Shown here piece by piece: positions 11,310 to 36,761 of a stretch of DNA of 45,029 nucleotides. Position numbers and translations under genes: made by a program. This stretch comes from Nitriliruptorales bacterium (GTDB lineage Bacteria; Actinomycetota; Nitriliruptoria; Euzebyales; Egibacteraceae), in the NCBI GenBank assembly GCA_009379795.1, contig WHTC01000003.1:1-45029 (forward strand), in the 5' to 3' direction. Numbering within the stretch: the stretch's first letter is position 1; every line of letters begins with the position of its first letter. A model generated the notes under the pieces. It saw nothing but the letters and a program-made list of their open reading frames with translations, had not been told where the DNA came from and ran no database searches.

Positions 11310-12740
11310 ATGGCGAAGGATCTGCGGAGCTTCCTGAACGAGGTGGTCGAGCATCGGCCGGGCGATGTGAAAATCGTCGATTCCGCGGTTGACCCCCGGT
11401 TCGGTATCACCGCCTGGGGGGCGGCGTACGAGCGGCGGGGTGAGTTCCCGGCGTTCCTGTTCACCAACGTCGAGGGCGGCGCGACGTCGGTGGTGACGAA
11501 CCTGGCGGCTACCTGGGAGCGGATGGCGCTGGCGCTGGGAACCAGCGTGCACGAACTGCAGACCACGACCAACATGAACGAGGGTCGCACTGCCCATCCG
11601 CCCGTTGAGGTCGCTCGGGAGCAGGCTCCGGTCAAGGAGGTCGTCTGGACCGGTGATGAGGCCAGGCTCGATCGCCTGCCGATCCCGACGCATAACCACG
11701 CGGACGGTGGCCCGTATCTCACGGCCGCGGTGGGGATCATGCGCGATCCGCTCACCGAGGAACTGAATGCCGGCATCTATCGTCATCATGTCTACGACGC
11801 CAGGTCGATGGGTGTCTGGTTCTTCGGGTCCCACCATGGCGGAACGATTCACCGCCGGTACGAGCAGAAGATGGAGGGGACGCCCATCGGGTTGGCCATC
11901 GGCCATCACCCCGGATTCCTGATGGGGGCCGTCTCCCGGGTTCCCGGGATAGGCGGGGAGTACAACGCGGCGGGAGCCTTCCTTGGCGAGTCCGTGGAGG
12001 TCGTGAGGGCGGAGAAGCTCGACATCCTGGTTCCCGCGCGGGCGGAGATCGTCATCGAGGGGGTCATCCGCCCGGGTGAGCAACGTGAGGAGGGACCCTT
12101 CGCCGAGTGGCCGGGTCTGTATGTGGCCGGTGGACCGAAGCCCATCATCGACGTGGTCGCCATCACGATGCGGCGCGACGCGGTGTTCCAGGACATCCAG
12201 TCGGCCGGCCAGGAGCATCGGCTGATGGGGGGGCTGCCCCGGATCGCCAGCGTCCAGGCCAACGTATCGAAGGTTGTCGACGAGTTGGTGGGGGTCAACA
12301 TCCCGCTGCACACGAGGATGCACTGCTACGTGTCAATCAAGAAGACCAACGACGGCGAACCCACGCGTGCGGCGTTCGCTGCGCTGAACACCGAGCCGGA
12401 GAACCTGCGCATGATCGTCGTCGTGGACGACGACATCGACGTGCATGACGAGAAGGCCGTTTCGTGGGCGGTCGGGACGCGCTTCGACGCCGAGAGGGAC
12501 CTGCAGATCATCCCTCGGTGGAACGGCCCCGCAGGTCTGCTGCCCACCAATTGGTCCTACGATGACAAGGGTGCGCGTCAACCGCGCATGTCGTCGGCGT
12601 GCATCATCGACGCGACCAAGCCGGCGCCTCCGATCCAGTACCCCGACCGGGCGTACGTCCCTCAGGCGGCGATCGAGGAAGTCCGACCCGAGTCGACCAG
12701 CGACTTCACGCCCGGGTGGGAGCTGCCGGCGGTCCGGTGA
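11310..12740 (+). CDS. UbiD family (prenylated-FMN dependent) decarboxylase
   Basis: This 476-residue protein has the UbiD fold. UbiD enzymes reversibly decarboxylate aromatic or unsaturated acids using prenylated FMN made by UbiX. Recognised parts are the N-terminal domain with ITAWGAAYERRGEFPAFLF, the cofactor region NAGIYRHHVYDARSMGVWFF, and the acidic catalytic stretch EIVIEGVIRP followed by REEGPFAEWPGLY (Glu246-Glu266 area, where the E-R-E catalytic acids lie). The start is ATG 11310 behind GGAGGGAC; the frame is open further upstream without a good ribosome site. It is transcribed away from the broken hydrolase and followed after 59 bases by the flavin monooxygenase. No ubiX is present in the window, so the cofactor must come from elsewhere. 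Substrate unknown; an aromatic carboxylate is likely. Confidence 0.9.
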   Translation: MAKDLRSFLNEVVEHRPGDVKIVDSAVDPRFGITAWGAAYERRGEFPAFLFTNVEGGATSVVTNLAATWERMALALGTSVHELQTTTNMNEGRTAHPPVEVAREQAPVKEVVWTGDEARLDRLPIPTHNHADGGPYLTAAVGIMRDPLTEELNAGIYRHHVYDARSMGVWFFGSHHGGTIHRRYEQKMEGTPIGLAIGHHPGFLMGAVSRVPGIGGEYNAAGAFLGESVEVVRAEKLDILVPARAEIVIEGVIRPGEQREEGPFAEWPGLYVAGGPKPIIDVVAITMRRDAVFQDIQSAGQEHRLMGGLPRIASVQANVSKVVDELVGVNIPLHTRMHCYVSIKKTNDGEPTRAAFAALNTEPENLRMIVVVDDDIDVHDEKAVSWAVGTRFDAERDLQIIPRWNGPAGLLPTNWSYDDKGARQPRMSSACIIDATKPAPPIQYPDRAYVPQAAIEEVRPESTSDFTPGWELPAVR

Positions 12741-28883: not shown

Positions 28884-29705
28884 ATGGCGACCACGTCCTC
28901 CACGACGGTGTCGAAGGCGTTCCGCGTGCTCAATCTGTTCTACCGGCACCCCGTGCTGACGACCACCCGGTGCGCTGAGGAGCTCGACATCTCCCGATCC
29001 ACCGCCCACCGCCTGCTCGTGAGCCTGCGGGAGGCGGGAGCGGTGGAGCCGACCGAGCATGGCCACTTCCGCCTCAGCCTCAGCCTGTTCGAGCTGGGCT
29101 CCCTGGCGCCGCAGCGCCGCTTCCTGGGTGACCGGGCGACCGCTGCGATGGAGGAGTTGGCCGACGTCGTCGGGCTTCGCGTACACCTCGGTGTTCGACA
29201 GGACCTTCACCTGCTCTACCTGGAGACGGCCCACGGAAGGTACGCCCAACGTGTGCCCACGAGGGTCGGCAACCGCGGGCCCCTCCACGCGACGGCGCTG
29301 GGAAAGGTCCTGCTCGCCTATGCCCCCGAGCCGGTCATCAACCGCGTGCTCGCCTCGGACCTGCAGGGATTCACGCCGCACACGACCCGGTCGGCGTGCG
29401 CGCTGCGCACGGAGCTCGAGCGCGCCCGTTGCGAGGGTGTGGCCCACGGTCGCCAGGAGTACGTGCTCGGCAGCTGCTCGATCGCCGTGCCCGTGGTCGG
29501 GCCCGACGGGCAGGCCCGCGCCGCGATCTCCATCGCCGGGAGCACTGTTGCGGTGTACCCCAGGGTCAGCGCCCTCACCGCGAAGCTGAGGCATACCGCG
29601 CGGACCATCGAGCGGGGCTCGGCCTGGGAGGAGAGCTACGACTCGATGAGCCGCCGCAGCACCTTCCGCCAGCGCCAGGAAACCATGGTCCGCGCGGCGT
29701 CCTGA
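28884..29705 (+). CDS. IclR family transcriptional regulator
   Basis: This 273-residue regulator has an N-terminal winged helix (residues 1-60; TTRCAEELDISRSTAHRLLV is the helix-turn-helix) and an IclR effector domain (about 75-245, with LRVHLGVRQDLHLLYLE, GNRGPLHATALGKVLLAY and SCSIAVPVVGPDGQARAAIS). IclR proteins often control aromatic acid catabolism and transport. ATG 28884 follows GAGAGGAGCTC. It lies 140 bases before the ABC transporter/UbiD operon on the same strand and probably regulates it. The C-terminal 30 residues are Arg/Ser-rich and beyond the family core. Confidence 0.92.
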   Translation: MATTSSTTVSKAFRVLNLFYRHPVLTTTRCAEELDISRSTAHRLLVSLREAGAVEPTEHGHFRLSLSLFELGSLAPQRRFLGDRATAAMEELADVVGLRVHLGVRQDLHLLYLETAHGRYAQRVPTRVGNRGPLHATALGKVLLAYAPEPVINRVLASDLQGFTPHTTRSACALRTELERARCEGVAHGRQEYVLGSCSIAVPVVGPDGQARAAISIAGSTVAVYPRVSALTAKLRHTARTIERGSAWEESYDSMSRRSTFRQRQETMVRAAS

Positions 29706-29845
29706 CCTTTCCTGAGGCCCGTCTCACCATGGAGGACACCGGCAGTCCACTCGGCTCGTTCAGTCGTCTCTAATGGTTGCCGGACAAGCGATGCGGGAGT
29801 GCGTCCCGGTCGCCTGGCCCATGCCAGTGCGAGGAGGCGCCGAGC

Positions 29846-30682
29846 GTGCAGGCAGCACCGTCACACCCGGCGCACCGGCGCGGACTGTTCGCGGCGGTGG
29901 TCGGCGCATCCCTCCCGTACCAGATCCTTACGTTCGTCATCGTTGCCCTTGGGTGGGAACTCTTCGCTCGCAACACCGGCGGAGTCCTCATCCCATCATT
30001 CTTCGACACGATGGGCGGGCTGTGGAGCCTCGTGCAGGATCGTCGCCTGTGGGAAGCCCTCGCGACCAGCAACATCGCGCTGGCGTTGGGGTACTTCATC
30101 GCCATCCCGGTCGGGATCCCCGCCGGGCTGGCCATGGGAAGGTTCCCGGGCATCGAGCGCTTCGCTGACGTCTATATCAGCATCCTGCTCGTGACACCGA
30201 TGGCGGCGCTGTTGCCCATCATCATGATGGCCGTCGGCATCACGATGACGGCGCAGGTCATCGTGATCTTCATCTTCACGGTGGTCATCCTGGTCGTGAA
30301 CGCACGCGCCGGGGTCCGCCAGGTCGATCCGTCACTGGTGGAGATGGCGAGGTCGTGCGGCGCCACCGAGCTTGAGGTATGGCGTCACATCCTGCTCCCG
30401 GGGGCCCTTCCCGCGATCATGACCGGCGTCCGCATCGGGATCGGCCGGGCCTTCACTGGCATGGTCATCGTCGAGTTGCTGCTCGTGCCGGCCGGTGTAG
30501 GGGGGCTCATCCTCGACTTCCGCGGCTTCTTCCAGGGAGACCTGCTCTACGCCACGGTCATCATGATCGTCGCGGAGGCGCTCATCCTCATCTCCTTCGC
30601 AGAGTGGCTGGAGCGCAAGCTCACCCCCTGGAACCTTGTGCGCCAGAACGATAAGTCTCTGAGCGCAAAGACGACGGAATGA
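29846..30682 (+). CDS. ABC transporter permease, SsuC/TauC type (first of two)
   Basis: This 278-residue membrane protein has about six helices and the EAA loop VDPSLVEMARSCGATELEVW followed by LLPGALPAIMTGVRIGIGRA, the site that docks to the ATPase. GTG 29846 is preceded by GAGGAGG at 8 bases; the frame is open upstream but poor. It belongs to the nitrate/sulfonate/taurine group, whose importers usually use two copies of one permease. Here a second, different permease is encoded after the ATPase, so a heterodimer is likely. The ligand is probably the substrate of the downstream UbiD enzyme, which is inference from gene order. Confidence 0.9.
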   Translation: MQAAPSHPAHRRGLFAAVVGASLPYQILTFVIVALGWELFARNTGGVLIPSFFDTMGGLWSLVQDRRLWEALATSNIALALGYFIAIPVGIPAGLAMGRFPGIERFADVYISILLVTPMAALLPIIMMAVGITMTAQVIVIFIFTVVILVVNARAGVRQVDPSLVEMARSCGATELEVWRHILLPGALPAIMTGVRIGIGRAFTGMVIVELLLVPAGVGGLILDFRGFFQGDLLYATVIMIVAEALILISFAEWLERKLTPWNLVRQNDKSLSAKTTE

Positions 30683-30692
30683 GGATGCTGCG

Positions 30693-31514
30693 ATGATCGA
30701 AATCAGCGGCCTGAACAAGTATTACGCGGGCCGGCGTGGCCTAGACCGCGTCCACGCACTGGCCGACGTCAATCTTACGGTCAACAGCAACGAGTTCCTC
30801 ACCGTGCTGGGACCGAGCGGATGTGGGAAGACCACCCTCCTCAAGATCATCGCTGGCCTGGTTCCCTTCGAGCACGGCGATGTCCGGATCGACGGCGAGG
30901 CGATCAAGGGGCCCGGGCCCGAACGGAGCATGGTCTTCCAGAACTTCGCACTCATGCCATGGGCCAGCGTGCTGCGCAACGTCGCCTTCGGCCTGGAGCT
31001 CCGGAAGGTCGCCAAGGACGAGCGCACCGAACGCGCCAGAGACCTCATCAGGATGGTGGGCCTGGAGGGATTCGAGAGCCGCTATCCCGCCGAGCTATCG
31101 GGTGGGATGCAGCAGCGGGTTGGGCTGGCCCGCGCCCTGGCGGTTGAGCCCCGCGTCCTGCTCATGGACGAGCCGTTCAGCGCGCTCGACGAGCAGACCC
31201 GCCGCCTGCTGCAGGAGCAGCTCATCGACATCTGGGAGAAGAGCAAGACAACCGTCGTCTTCATCACCCACAGCATGGATGAAGCGGTGCTGCTCGGTGA
31301 CCGAGTCGTCCTGATGACGGTGCGCCCGGGCCGCGTCGAGCAGACGCTGCACGTCCCGCTGCCGCGCCCTCGCAACCGCGACATGGAGCGGACGAGCGAG
31401 TTCACCGGCATCACGGGCCTGCTGTGGGACCGCTTGCGCGTGATGCAGGAGGAACAGGTGGAGACGACCAGCAGCATCCCGAAGCCGCAGGCGCACGCAG
31501 TTGAGGTGGAGTGA
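30693..31514 (+). CDS. ABC transporter ATP-binding protein, SsuB/TauB type
   Basis: This 273-residue ATPase has Walker A GPSGCGKTT (residues 40-48), Q-loop in VFQNFALMPWASVLRNV, the signature LSGGMQQR (about 134-141), Walker B RVLLMDEPFSALDE (Asp159, Glu160 area) and the switch His in VFITHSMDEA. It powers the import system of the two flanking permeases. ATG 30693 begins 10 bases after the first permease, with GAGGATG upstream. The C-terminus carries about 25 extra residues beyond the domain. Confidence 0.95.
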   Translation: MIEISGLNKYYAGRRGLDRVHALADVNLTVNSNEFLTVLGPSGCGKTTLLKIIAGLVPFEHGDVRIDGEAIKGPGPERSMVFQNFALMPWASVLRNVAFGLELRKVAKDERTERARDLIRMVGLEGFESRYPAELSGGMQQRVGLARALAVEPRVLLMDEPFSALDEQTRRLLQEQLIDIWEKSKTTVVFITHSMDEAVLLGDRVVLMTVRPGRVEQTLHVPLPRPRNRDMERTSEFTGITGLLWDRLRVMQEEQVETTSSIPKPQAHAVEVE

Positions 31515-31515
31515 C

Positions 31516-32352
31516 ATGGCAGCCATCCCCGCGCAGGCGACTGGCAGCGAACCCCGTGCGCGTGAGCCTCGCGGGCCGGTCGGCCGCAGCGTGCGGGACG
31601 GCCTGTCCTCGAACTTCCCGTCGCTCGCCGCGATCCTCACCGGAGTGCTCGGATGGGAGATCATCGGACAGGTCGCGGACGTCGCGTACTTCCCGCCGTT
31701 CAGCGCGGTCGTCGGCCGGTTGGTCGCGCTCGTCGCGTCGGGTGTGATCATCGCCAACGTCTTCAACAGCCTGGTCAACTTCATCGTCGCGTTCGCGTTC
31801 TCCGTCGTGGTCGGCGTGACCGTCGGCCTGCTGATGGGTGCGATCCCTCAGGTCCAGGCCGCGCTCGGCATCTACGTGAACGCGCTGCTGACTGCTCCCG
31901 CCCTGGTGTTCGCCCCGATCTTTTTCTCCGTTTTCGGCCTCGGGCGCGGATCCATCATCTCGCTCATCATCATGTACGCGATATGGCTCATCACCATCTC
32001 GACCGCGGACGCGGTGCGAGGCGTCGACCGCCAGCTGCTGGAGATGGCGAATTCGTTCATGATCTCGCGTCCCCAGATGTTCCTCAAGATCATGCTGCCG
32101 GCAGCCTTGCCCCGCATCATGGCCGGCATCCGCATCGGCGCGGGCCGCGGGGTCAAAGGAATGATCAACGGTGAGATGTTCATCGCCGCCGTCGGTCTGG
32201 GCGCCGTGGTGCAGGAGGGGGGTCGCCGCTTCGATGCGGAAAGCGTGCTCGCCGTCCTGCTCGTGATTCTTGCCGTCGCGATCGTGGTCGACCGGATTGT
32301 GACCACGCTGGACCAGTGGCTCACGTCGTGGGCTCCGTCCTCCGGACGTTGA
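31516..32352 (+). CDS. ABC transporter permease, SsuC/TauC type (second of two)
   Basis: This 278-residue permease has about six helices and the EAA loop VDRQLLEMANSFMISRPQMF with IMLPAALPRIMAGIRIGAGR. ATG 31516 begins 1 base after the ATPase stop, and GGTGGAG lies upstream. Its N-terminal half (including FPSLAAILTGVLGWEII) is clearly different from the first permease although the lengths are the same, so the two probably form a heterodimeric membrane channel. A 188-base gap then precedes the UbiD gene, enough for an internal promoter. Confidence 0.9.
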   Translation: MAAIPAQATGSEPRAREPRGPVGRSVRDGLSSNFPSLAAILTGVLGWEIIGQVADVAYFPPFSAVVGRLVALVASGVIIANVFNSLVNFIVAFAFSVVVGVTVGLLMGAIPQVQAALGIYVNALLTAPALVFAPIFFSVFGLGRGSIISLIIMYAIWLITISTADAVRGVDRQLLEMANSFMISRPQMFLKIMLPAALPRIMAGIRIGAGRGVKGMINGEMFIAAVGLGAVVQEGGRRFDAESVLAVLLVILAVAIVVDRIVTTLDQWLTSWAPSSGR

Positions 32353-32540: not shown

Positions 32541-33965
32541 ATGAGCGAGCCACCAAGAAACACCCTCGGCTCCGTCACCCACGAGTTCATCGAGCGGGTC
32601 CAGAAGTGGGATCCCTCCCAGGTCCTACGGATCAGCGACGAGGTGAACCCGGCCGACTTCGGGGTGACGGGGGTGCTCGGCGCCCTTGAGGCCGAGGGGC
32701 GGTCCCCGATGGTCCTCTTCGAGAACCCGCTGACGGTGAACGGCGAGCCGTCACCGATCCCCGTGCTCACCAACGTGTTCGCGTCCCGCGAGCGCTGCGC
32801 GATCGCCCAGGGGCTCGATCCGTCGGCTGCGGGCCTCGATCTCAGCCTCGACTTCTCCAGCCGGGAGCGTGGAGCGCTCGATCCCGTCATCGTGCCGCCC
32901 GAGCAGGCACCGGTCCGCCAGGTCGAACTCATCGGCGAGGATGCGGACCTCGGCGACCTCCCCGTCGTGCGTTTCCACAAGATGGATCCCGGCCCGTATA
33001 TCGACATGGTCTGCGTCATGAAGAACCCGGAGAAGGACTCCTACAACTCCGCGTTCCTGCGCAACATGCTCCAGGGGCCGCGCCAGGTGGGCATTCACAT
33101 GTCGCCGCGGCACAACTGGCGGTTCTGCCGGACCAACGAGCGTGAGAACAGACCGACGCCCGTGGCGATCGTCGTAAGCCACGACCCGAGCTTCTACCTC
33201 GGCGCGCTCAACGTCCGCCCGTACGGCGACAACGATTACGAGGTCATCGGCTCGATCATGGGTGAGCCACTGCGGCTCACGCCATCGGCCACGCTGGGCG
33301 ACGATTTCATGATCCCTGCGGACGCCGACATCGTGGTGGAGGGCCGGGTGCTGCCCAACAAGCGGCAGGTCGAGGCGCCCTTCGGTGAGTTCCCCGGGTA
33401 TTACGGCCCCCAGCGGCGGAACTGGGTCATCGAGGTCAGCGGCATCGTGCGGCGCGAGAAGCCGGTGTTCCAGGCGATCTTCGTGGGTCACAAGGACAAC
33501 TGGGTCCTCGGGTCCATTCCCAAGGAGGGCGCCCTGTTCAGCCGCATCCGCGGCGTCGTCCCGGGAGTCACGGCCGTGCACCTGCCAGACTCCGGCTGCG
33601 GCCGGTTCCACTGCTACATCTCGATCGACAAGCGCGTCGATGGCGAGAGCAGGCAGGCCGCGCTCATCGCGCTGGGTGAGATCGACTTCGTCAAGCACGT
33701 GGTGGTCGTGGACGCCGACATCGACGTCTTCCAGGAGGAGCAGGTCGTGTGGGCGATCGCCACACGGATCCAGGCCTCCCGGGACATCGACATCATCAAG
33801 AACGCGAAGGGAAACACGCTCGATCCGTCGCAGATCGACGACATCATGACGGACAAGCTCATCATCGATGCCACGAAGCCCGTCTCCCGGCCGTTCGCCA
33901 AGCGCGTCGAGGTGCCGGAGGAGGCGCTCACCAAGGGCCGGGCGATCCTCGAATCCCTCAAGTGA
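32541..33965 (+). CDS. UbiD family (prenylated-FMN dependent) decarboxylase, second copy
   Basis: This 474-residue UbiD-fold protein has NSAFLRNMLQGPRQVGIH in the cofactor region, DIVVEGRVLPNKRQ followed by EAPFGEFPGYYG (catalytic acids in the area 263-284), and the late MTDKLIIDATKP block shared with the first UbiD (CIIDATKP). ATG 32541 has GAAAGGG upstream; earlier in-frame starts give non-family sequence. It is co-directional with the ABC genes on its left, and a 57-residue zinc-ribbon gene follows after 33 bases. In known hydroxyarylic acid decarboxylases of this family a small zinc-ribbon subunit (D) accompanies the large subunit C. An aromatic acid delivered by the ABC system is the likely substrate. 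Confidence 0.9.
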   Translation: MSEPPRNTLGSVTHEFIERVQKWDPSQVLRISDEVNPADFGVTGVLGALEAEGRSPMVLFENPLTVNGEPSPIPVLTNVFASRERCAIAQGLDPSAAGLDLSLDFSSRERGALDPVIVPPEQAPVRQVELIGEDADLGDLPVVRFHKMDPGPYIDMVCVMKNPEKDSYNSAFLRNMLQGPRQVGIHMSPRHNWRFCRTNERENRPTPVAIVVSHDPSFYLGALNVRPYGDNDYEVIGSIMGEPLRLTPSATLGDDFMIPADADIVVEGRVLPNKRQVEAPFGEFPGYYGPQRRNWVIEVSGIVRREKPVFQAIFVGHKDNWVLGSIPKEGALFSRIRGVVPGVTAVHLPDSGCGRFHCYISIDKRVDGESRQAALIALGEIDFVKHVVVVDADIDVFQEEQVVWAIATRIQASRDIDIIKNAKGNTLDPSQIDDIMTDKLIIDATKPVSRPFAKRVEVPEEALTKGRAILESLK

Positions 33966-33998
33966 ACCGCTTGCTGTGCCCCGTAAGGAGCGATTCTG

Positions 33999-34172
33999 AT
34001 GGTCATGATGTTCTGGATCACCTGCCCGAAATGCGACGGCGAGTTCTACGTCCACGCCGAGTTGCGCGGCACGGACCACGACCTTCTGTGCCCATACTGC
34101 GGCGAGTTGTTCAAGGAGAAACAGAGCCCGAAGGTCTGGGGAGACGCGAGCTCCTCCCCGGGGTGGTCCTGA
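33999..34172 (+). CDS. 57-residue zinc-ribbon protein, possible UbiD partner subunit
   Basis: ATG 33999 is 8 bases after a near-ideal AAGGAG, and the frame ends at a TGA that overlaps the ATG of the binding protein gene (TGATG, 34170-34174). The protein has two CxxC knuckles, CPKC (Cys9, Cys12) and CPYC (Cys31, Cys34), separated by FYVHAELRGTDHDLL, the pattern of a zinc ribbon. No signal peptide. Its strong ribosome site, coupling to the next gene and metal-binding pattern argue that it is real. Similar-sized zinc-ribbon proteins (VdcD/YclD, subunit D) work with UbiD-type hydroxyarylic acid decarboxylases, so a partner role with the preceding UbiD enzyme is a good guess. It is not a close sequence match to subunit D that I can confirm. 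Confidence 0.8.
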   Translation: MVMMFWITCPKCDGEFYVHAELRGTDHDLLCPYCGELFKEKQSPKVWGDASSSPGWS

Positions 34173-35293
34173 TGAAGAACCGCTCTTGCGGCTTTCGGGC
34201 CGGACCATGGGTCGGGCTGCTTCTCGCTTTCGCACTCGTCGCCGCGGGATGCGGGGATGGCGCCGGCGACGCGGCCGGTGACGATGCCGCAGAGACCGAG
34301 GCCGCCGGTGGGGACACCGCCGCCGACGCAGATGCCGATACGGCGGACAGCACCGGCACCATCGAGATTCCCGACGAAGAGACGCGATCGTTCTCGTTCG
34401 CGCATCCGAGCGTCCCTCTCATCGGCCACGTGGCGATCCATGCGGCCCTCGACCGGATGCGTGAGGAGGGGTTCGAGATCGAGGAGCCCCGTATCGCCGA
34501 GTCCGAGCTCGTGGCCGAGGGCGTGGCTCGCGACGAGTTCCAGATGGCATCGGCCGGCGCCAACTCACCGATCCTGCTCGCGCAGCAGGACGCGCCGCTG
34601 CGTGTGCTCATGCAGCGTAACGGCAACGATTGGGCGCTCTTCGGTGTCACGGACATCGAGGACTGTGAGGACCTCGATGGCCGTGACCTCGCGATCCACA
34701 GCGAGGGCGGGGTGAGTGCCGCGATCATCCGGCACTGGATCGAGGAGAACTGCCCCGGCACCGAGCCTCGCTATCTGACCATCCCCGGCGGGCCCAACCG
34801 CGCCCAGGCGATGCTCGCTGGACAGGTGGAGGCCGCCCCGGTTCAGCTCGACCAGGTCCTCGAGCTCGAAGCGCAGGGAGAGGGACGCTTCCACGTTATC
34901 TCGAACTACGCCCAGGAGATCCCGGTCCTCATGACGTACGCGATCTTCGGCAACAGCGAATTCATCGAGCAGAACCCGAACGTGGTGAAGCTGTTCCTGA
35001 TGCGCGTCATCGAGGAGCACCGGGCGATCAGCGAGGATTCCGAGTACCTCGGCGACCTCATCCGCGAGTACCTGCCCGACTACCCCGAGGAGCAGATCGA
35101 GCCGGCCTCGGAGCTGTACGTCGAGTCCGACCAGTTCGACCCCAACGGCGGAGCAAGTGACGAGATCCTGAACTTCACGATCGACTTCTACCAGGAGGCC
35201 GAGGTCGTGGAGCAGGAGCCCGCGATCACGCCCGACGACATCGCTGCCAGGGGCCTGCTCGAAGAGGTTCTGGACATCATGGGCAGGGTGTAA
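34172..35293 (+). CDS. ABC transporter substrate-binding lipoprotein, NMT1/THI5-like
   Basis: This 373-residue protein begins with a lipoprotein signal ending in LVAAGC (Cys27), then a long acidic, Ala-rich linker to about residue 68. The binding domain shows SFAHPSVPLIGHVAIHAALD and FQMASAGANSPILLAQQDAP, typical of the NMT1/SsuA group, and DLDGRDLAIHSEGGVSAAII. It would capture a small organic acid and feed the two-permease ABC system encoded 1.8 kb upstream; the UbiD and zinc-ribbon genes lie between. ATG 34172 overlaps the zinc-ribbon stop. Ligand unknown. The acidic linker resembles that of the TctC protein at 1336. Confidence 0.9.
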   Translation: MKNRSCGFRAGPWVGLLLAFALVAAGCGDGAGDAAGDDAAETEAAGGDTAADADADTADSTGTIEIPDEETRSFSFAHPSVPLIGHVAIHAALDRMREEGFEIEEPRIAESELVAEGVARDEFQMASAGANSPILLAQQDAPLRVLMQRNGNDWALFGVTDIEDCEDLDGRDLAIHSEGGVSAAIIRHWIEENCPGTEPRYLTIPGGPNRAQAMLAGQVEAAPVQLDQVLELEAQGEGRFHVISNYAQEIPVLMTYAIFGNSEFIEQNPNVVKLFLMRVIEEHRAISEDSEYLGDLIREYLPDYPEEQIEPASELYVESDQFDPNGGASDEILNFTIDFYQEAEVVEQEPAITPDDIAARGLLEEVLDIMGRV

Positions 35294-35354: not shown

Positions 35355-35370
35355 CTGGCAAGCCTGCCAG
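35355..35370 (+). other. Short hairpin just upstream of the kinase gene
   Basis: CTGGCA-AGCC-TGCCAG forms a 6-base stem with a 4-base loop, ending 2 bases before the kinase ribosome site. It may weakly terminate the upstream operon or mask the ribosome site. Role unproven. Confidence 0.35.
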
Positions 35371-35381
35371 TGTGGAGGGCG

Positions 35382-36761
35382 ATGAACGTCGGAAACGAGA
35401 CCGCTGACGATCGTCGTCGGGTGGGCGAGCGCTACCGGTTGGACGGGCTGATCGGTCGTGGCGGCGCGGGTGCGGTATGGCGGGCGCACGACGAGCGCCT
35501 CGACCGTGCGGTCGCGGTGAAGGAGATTCTCTGGCCGGTCGACCCGGCGGAGTCCGGACCCGAGCGGGCGCTGCGAGAGGCGCGCGCGGCCGCGCGCCTG
35601 CGTGATCCGGGTGTCGTGCAGGTATACGACATGCTCACCGAGAGCGACCGCGCCTACCTCATCATGGAACTCGTCGACGCCCCGAGTCTGGAGCGGCTCG
35701 TCGAGCGGGATGGCCCGCTGGCTCCACCGCGCGCCGCGGCGCTTGGCGCGAGCATCCTGGCCACGCTGAGCGCGGCCCACGCCGCCGGCATCGTCCACCG
35801 GGATGTCAAGCCGAGCAACGTCCTGATCGAGGGTGACGTCCCCCGGCTGACCGACTTCGGCATTGCCCGCCTGGCGGACAACCCCGCCCTCACCGCGACA
35901 GGCATGGTGCTGGGTACCCCGAGTTTCATCGCGCCTGAGCAGGCGCGGGGCGAGCCTGCCGGCCCGGCTGCGGACCTCTACGGGCTCGGCGCGACCCTGT
36001 ACTTCGCGGTCGAGGGCGTCGCGCCCTTCTCGGCGGAGAACTCATTCCAGACCGTGATGGACGTGGTGAGTTCACCCCCCCGACCCTTGCAGCGTGCCGG
36101 AGATCTTGCTGATCTCATCGAGGCTCTGCTCCAGAAGGACCCGGCGGCGCGACCTGCCCCGGAAACGGTGGAGCGCCACCTGCGGGCGGCAGCGGCACCG
36201 GCTCTGGGCCCTGAAAGCATCCCCACGGTCCCCCTTGTCCCCACCCGGTCGGATCAGGCGCCGACCTCGACAAGGCTGCTGACCTCGGCGTCCGACCAAA
36301 CCGCCGCTCTGGTCGACGAGGCGCCTGCCGCGGAGGCGTCCTCCCCCCGAGGCGGTGGCGCCGGTCGCGTGATGGCGGTCATCGCGGGTTTTCTCGCCGT
36401 CGCGGCGCTGGCCCTGGTCGGGTTGTCCCTGCTCGACGGCGCGGGCGATCCAGCAGAGGACGAGTTGCCAGCCCAGACCCCGTCACCGGAGGGCGAGACC
36501 CCCGCCCCCGAGGCCCCGGAAGGCGAGGCCCCGGAAGGCGAGGCCCCAGAAGGCGAGGCCCCCGCCCCCGAGGCCCCGGCCGCGGAGCCGGCTCCCGACG
36601 TCGCCCCTCCGAGCGTCCCGCAGGAGGCTCCCCCTGCCGATGAGCCGACGCCGATCGAGCCCGACGCATCGAGCCCCACCGCGGACCCGGAGCCGGAGAC
36701 CGACGCGGGCGCATCCCCCGCGGAACCGCCAGCAGACGGCGGCGACTCAGCGGCGGGTTGA
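35382..36761 (+). CDS. Ser/Thr protein kinase, PknB-like, single membrane helix
   Basis: This 459-residue protein has an N-terminal kinase domain (about residues 18-270): glycine loop GRGGAGAVW (25-33), AVKE with Lys47, HRDVKPSN with Asp141, DFGIAR with Asp158, and GTPSFIAPEQARG. A single membrane helix follows (VMAVIAGFLAVAALALVGLSLL, about 330-352) and then an outer tail of about 100 residues that is rich in Pro, Glu and Ala, with repeated PEGEA units and no PASTA domain. ATG 35382 has TGGAGGG upstream; a GTG at 35370 is possible. It probably senses the envelope or outside through the tail. It is transcribed after the ABC/UbiD operon but is likely an independent gene. Confidence 0.93.
   Translation: MNVGNETADDRRRVGERYRLDGLIGRGGAGAVWRAHDERLDRAVAVKEILWPVDPAESGPERALREARAAARLRDPGVVQVYDMLTESDRAYLIMELVDAPSLERLVERDGPLAPPRAAALGASILATLSAAHAAGIVHRDVKPSNVLIEGDVPRLTDFGIARLADNPALTATGMVLGTPSFIAPEQARGEPAGPAADLYGLGATLYFAVEGVAPFSAENSFQTVMDVVSSPPRPLQRAGDLADLIEALLQKDPAARPAPETVERHLRAAAAPALGPESIPTVPLVPTRSDQAPTSTRLLTSASDQTAALVDEAPAAEASSPRGGGAGRVMAVIAGFLAVAALALVGLSLLDGAGDPAEDELPAQTPSPEGETPAPEAPEGEAPEGEAPEGEAPAPEAPAAEPAPDVAPPSVPQEAPPADEPTPIEPDASSPTADPEPETDAGASPAEPPADGGDSAAG
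36510..36554 (+). repeat. Three 15-base tandem repeats in the kinase tail
   Basis: GAGGCCCCGGAAGGC occurs at 36510-36524 and 36525-36539, with a third copy at 36540-36554 carrying one change. It encodes EAPEG units of the kinase tail. The repeat number may vary between strains without breaking the frame. Confidence 0.85.

Follow-up and report, generated by a model that had tools for sequence, protein, structure and literature searches.

Organization of the UbiD operon

The window, i.e. the whole 45,029-nucleotide stretch of DNA that was analysed, carries on its forward strand a gene cluster headed by an IclR-family regulator (28884-29705; PF01614, PF09339). The regulator is followed by an ABC permease (29777-30682; PF00528) whose true start may be internal, a TauB/SsuB/SaoA-like ABC ATPase (30693-31514), another ABC permease (31501-32352; PF00528), a UbiD-family (de)carboxylase (32541-33965), a small zinc-ribbon gene (33999-34172) and an NMT1/THI5-like substrate-binding lipoprotein (34172-35293; PF09084). 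The UbiD assignment is based on PF01977/PF20695/PF20696, TIGR00148 and motif alignment, with scores above the cut-offs of PF01977 (163.7 bits vs 23.3) and TIGR00148 (267.4 bits vs 244.85). The catalytic E(D)-R-E motif is intact, and its segments, SAFLRN and VEAPFGEF, can be aligned to those of HmfF and VdcC. The ATG at 32541, which gives a protein of 474 aa, is the most plausible start and is preferred over a longer GTG frame.

The zinc-ribbon ORF begins with an ATG after a 33-nt gap from the UbiD stop codon (33963-33965) and comprises 57 codons, with MVMMFWITCPKCDGEFYVHAELRGTDHDLLCPYCGELFKEKQSPKVWGDASSSPGWS as its product. The four cysteines of this protein form two CxxC knuckles, C9xxC12 and C31xxC34, separated by 18 residues. 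A Shine-Dalgarno sequence, AAGGAG (33985-33990, forward strand), is positioned with an 8-nt spacer to the ATG, and the stop codon TGA (34170-34172) overlaps the ATG at 34172 of the binding-protein gene by 1 nt within the sequence TGATG. The gene length, ribosome-binding site, cysteine knuckles and TGATG coupling after ubiD, all listed in the initial annotation, are thereby confirmed on the sequence. Third-position GC in this ORF is 0.90 vs 0.47 at codon positions 1 and 2, resembling the surrounding real genes, and the ORF is the sole match to a CxxC-(8-40)-CxxC pattern among those of fewer than 110 codons in the window. The window genome contains one copy.

Homologues of the zinc-ribbon gene and their neighbours

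A scan of an 84,980-species contig collection with the single window sequence returned two matches, one in an acidobacterial MAG (L003, genome G424; 55% identity) and one in Mesonia (L004). The latter is not a relative, its ribbon lying within a methyltransferase. A 51-aa homologue is encoded in a genome of the window's class (G045), 3 nt after a UbiD gene. A three-row profile search of the phylum to which the acidobacterial MAG belongs gave five more homologues, all of them adjoining UbiD (G519, G555, G650, G730, G635), which brings the homologues to seven other genomes, six of the acidobacterial phylum and one of the window's class. A seven-row profile, which includes the homologues found earlier, identified no additional family member in later searches of 38, 397 and 396 genomes; the profile searches covered two phyla. 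In the 396-genome search, the rows that built the model score 84-92 bits, and the next matches, at about 30 bits, lie in frames of at least 164 aa.

Several other ribbon matches were discarded. Two matches on haloarchaeal plasmids (H31, H32) are located away from UbiD, and those in Rahnella lie inside a phage terminase. Most of the weaker matches from the searches of two phyla (L010-L021, L038-L043) lie in larger frames, and for none of them did tblastn detect a UbiD within about 1.5 kb on either side; those of the last profile search (L088-L098) are in frames of at least 164 aa.

The initial annotation had linked the small gene to UbiD and proposed a search for it beside UbiD genes of other genomes. 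All seven homologue genomes have it in that position, and with the window a UbiD gene adjoins the zinc-ribbon gene in 8 of the 8 genomes that carry it. The gene lies 3' of UbiD in four of them (window, G045, G424/L003, G519) and 5' in the other four (G555, G650, G730, G635). Four of the eight genomes are closely related and carry nearly identical copies, and the set thus represents about four or five independent contexts. Neighbours beyond UbiD vary: an ABC importer in the window, an amidohydrolase in both G424 and G635, BenE transporters in G519, and in G045 a molybdenum-hydroxylase FAD subunit, an aldehyde dehydrogenase, CoxG, a MobA-like gene and XdhC. UbiD is the sole neighbour common to these loci. 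The binding-protein gene adjoins the small gene only in the window, which argues against an association with the binding protein alone. The same holds for the ABC importer, which had been taken as part of the system and is better seen as a local addition.

The zinc-ribbon gene is rare. Among 30 genomes of the order a single one carries it, against two among 66 of the class and one among 397 in a phylum sample, which suggests patchy inheritance or transfer. Its coding sequence is conserved where it occurs. The copies of G555 and G650 differ with a dN of 0.044 and a dS of 1.37, and dN/dS is about 0.03-0.06 between the better-diverged copies, indicating purifying selection. C9/C12 and C31/C34 are invariant across the seven aligned members. 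The ORF at 33999-34172 is a real gene: a homologue 54-55% identical, directly after a UbiD gene in the acidobacterial MAG, and the low dN/dS elsewhere place it beyond chance.

The partner UbiD clade

In a tree of 39 UbiD rows, the zinc-ribbon-linked UbiDs group together, with two UbiDs without the gene, L052 (G424) and L005 (Natrinema), inside or beside them (90/91). The VdcC proteins that occur with VdcD form a separate group, branching from the zinc-ribbon-linked UbiDs with 100/100, and many partnerless UbiDs are found between the two clades. The small gene travels with one particular UbiD group in two distant bacterial groups. Its absence at the two close relatives L052 (G424:C109) and L005 indicates that the clade is not always in need of it. 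Against the VdcC model NF041204, the window UbiD scores 256.6 bits, below the cut-off of 650. Its best-scoring solved relative is HmfF (PDB 6H6V; 259.8 bits), for which we know of no zinc-ribbon subunit.

Every aligned zinc-ribbon-linked UbiD, together with the sisters L005 and L052, has a five-residue N-terminal insertion (FENP-LTVNG-EPS in the window protein; codons at 32730-32744 of the forward strand, boundaries approximate from the alignment). The insertion is missing from VdcC, HmfF and nearly all other aligned UbiDs, a similar one being present in L053. Judged from the alignment, it may be a docking element for the small protein; it could also be merely a marker of the clade.

The acidobacterial MAG G424 gave 14 UbiD matches, and of those fetched, one has a small CxxC-CxxC neighbour of the zinc-ribbon family. 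Its UbiD set (L044-L054) is unusually rich. Two sister UbiDs, L055:5107-6543 (G045) and L052:2316-3704 (G424), have altered E-R-E residues, with R replaced by K and the first E by A or Q, and the second E replaced by D in L055; these two may be catalytically unusual.

Comparison with VdcD and other small ribbons

The window family resembles VdcD/ShdD/BsdD (NF041205, PDB 7AE4) in being a small ribbon with two CxxC knuckles whose gene adjoins UbiD. The two differ in the spacing of the knuckles, which is 21 residues in VdcD and 18 (or 25) in the window family. VdcD proteins also have an invariant W before knuckle 2, a WR after it and a long C-terminal tail, all of which are missing from the window family; some of its members have instead a short tail with SP[KQ][VI]. 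In addition, and unlike in VdcD/ShdD/BsdD, the partner UbiD lies outside the VdcC clade and the gene is sometimes 5' of UbiD. With NF041205 (cut-off 30 bits), no match at E<=1 was obtained for the window protein or for the L003, L033, L034 and L002 members. The BsdD control sequence scored 108.8 bits with this model and also matched PDB 7AE4, which validates it as a control. Alignment of the window family to VdcD with hhalign gave a probability of 4.8%, no better than for unrelated ribbons such as those of FmdB and the Mesonia methyltransferase, and the similarity thus reflects a shared ribbon pattern only. Taken with the missing W/WR motif and tail and the non-VdcC partner, these results led us to reject VdcD membership by sequence.

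The CPxC...F......CPxC...F pattern is also that of MJ0042-type (TIGR02098) and Zn_ribbon_4 (PF13717) ribbons. The zinc-ribbon protein scores below both cut-offs (18.8 of 20.9 bits and 22.2 of 30.3 bits, respectively), differs in being a stand-alone UbiD neighbour, and is below the cut-off of the YnfU family as well.

Structure prediction and proposed role

AlphaFold2, run with a two-row alignment, models the zinc-ribbon protein as a beta-ribbon (pLDDT 80). With this model as query, Foldseek returned no match at E<=0.001; the 50 matches listed do not include VdcD. A read-through fusion of UbiD and the small protein, modelled for contacts, reached a pLDDT of 41.5, the alignment being too shallow for the model to be interpreted.

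Six copies of VdcD, a zinc ribbon that likewise has two CxxC knuckles, bind the VdcC hexamer; VdcD touches the E-R-E loops and is required for activity (PMC8379154). Because the predicted beta-ribbon is of the same kind as VdcD and the window UbiD retains its E-R-E triad, we propose that the zinc-ribbon gene, on balance, probably encodes the small subunit of a UbiD-type (prFMN-dependent) aromatic-acid decarboxylase that works in a VdcD-like manner. For this pair we infer zinc binding, complex formation, activation and a substrate as follows. The two knuckles would hold one zinc and fold the protein into a small beta-ribbon, which would bind a UbiD protomer in a stoichiometric complex. The bound ribbon might then keep the UbiD active site, including the E-R-E loops and domain closure, in a competent state, as VdcD does for VdcC. 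The NMT1-type ABC importer of the IclR-headed operon probably brings in the substrate acid.

The name diverged small subunit, used in the initial annotation, is apt in its functional sense since VdcD is itself a zinc-ribbon subunit needed for VdcC activity (PMC8379154), but neither descent from VdcD/ShdD/BsdD nor a VdcC-clade partner is borne out. A true, strongly diverged VdcD orthologue, in which both UbiD clades would have inherited one ancient D subunit, has in its favour the two CxxC knuckles, the length of 50-75 aa, the same partner family and, in the window, a gene order as in vdcC-vdcD. The failure of all members tested to match NF041205, the hhalign result and the many partnerless UbiDs between the clades make such an orthologue quite unlikely. 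It is also unlikely that the small protein is a maturation factor or a prFMN/UbiX docking chaperone that acts transiently and forms no subunit. LpdD and PhdC set a precedent, as small non-UbiX proteins linked to UbiD that can take part in loading or oxidizing the cofactor (PMC10865409, PMC13040415), and with UbiX elsewhere in the genome, outside the operon, a helper could be useful. However, LpdD is proteasome-chaperone-like and PhdC is an HpaC-like flavin reductase, and both bind prFMN (PMC10865409, PMC13040415), whereas the 57-aa protein is modelled as a beta-ribbon of about 50 residues with scant room for a flavin site. The clade specificity is also more in keeping with a subunit interface than with a general cofactor factor.

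In favour of a zinc or metal chaperone, or of a zinc-ribbon regulator merely riding in the operon, many nucleic-acid-binding proteins contain zinc ribbons, and the best PDB sequence matches of the small-protein profile are generic ribbons and fingers. The metal chaperone suggested in the initial annotation gained no support. The adjacency to UbiD across different operons and in both gene orders, with no other neighbour in common, renders such a chaperone or regulator highly improbable. The best reading is that the zinc-ribbon protein represents a second, unnamed class of UbiD partner, either convergent with VdcD or diverged beyond recognition. VdcD, PpcGamma and LpdD have no sequence similarity to one another (VdcCD paper, PMC8379154), and unrelated UbiD partners are thus the rule and not the exception. 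The VdcCD paper was the only one retrieved when the literature was searched for UbiD together with zinc ribbons. Tentatively, we suggest that UbiDs may have recruited a zinc-ribbon activator at least twice independently, as VdcD in the VdcC clade and as the window family in a separate clade, with the N-terminal insertion as a possible docking site. Some UbiD enzymes show no activity unless a partner is co-expressed, and many of the small partners have yet to be assigned a role (PMC8379154, PMC10865409). Another class of zinc-ribbon partner, falling below current family-model cut-offs, would explain why some UbiDs have resisted study and, if true, opens the question of whether the UbiD active site came under zinc-ribbon control on more than one occasion.

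Genomic surroundings of the operon

The window also includes an aromatic or heteroaromatic catabolic island (1336-25879), with an FAD oxidoreductase, an amidohydrolase, a molybdopterin hydroxylase, a LigXa-type Rieske oxygenase and an FAD ring hydroxylase. Another UbiD gene of the window (11313-12740, forward strand) has no zinc-ribbon neighbour. The Rieske oxygenase, ring hydroxylase and molybdopterin hydroxylase, together with this second UbiD, make an aromatic acid the likely substrate of the UbiD at 32541-33965. The second UbiD is 81% identical to a UbiD of G048, a genome of the window's class, which argues for correct binning of the contig. A third UbiD of the window genome is located at G000:C411. 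The only UbiX above the cut-off in this genome (L062, G000:C496:21-563) is on another contig, away from the UbiD of the operon. On the 3' side of the operon, the ORF at 35370-36761 (forward strand), judged by its reading frame alone, looks like a gene for a Ser/Thr protein kinase and includes an EGEAP-type repeat region.
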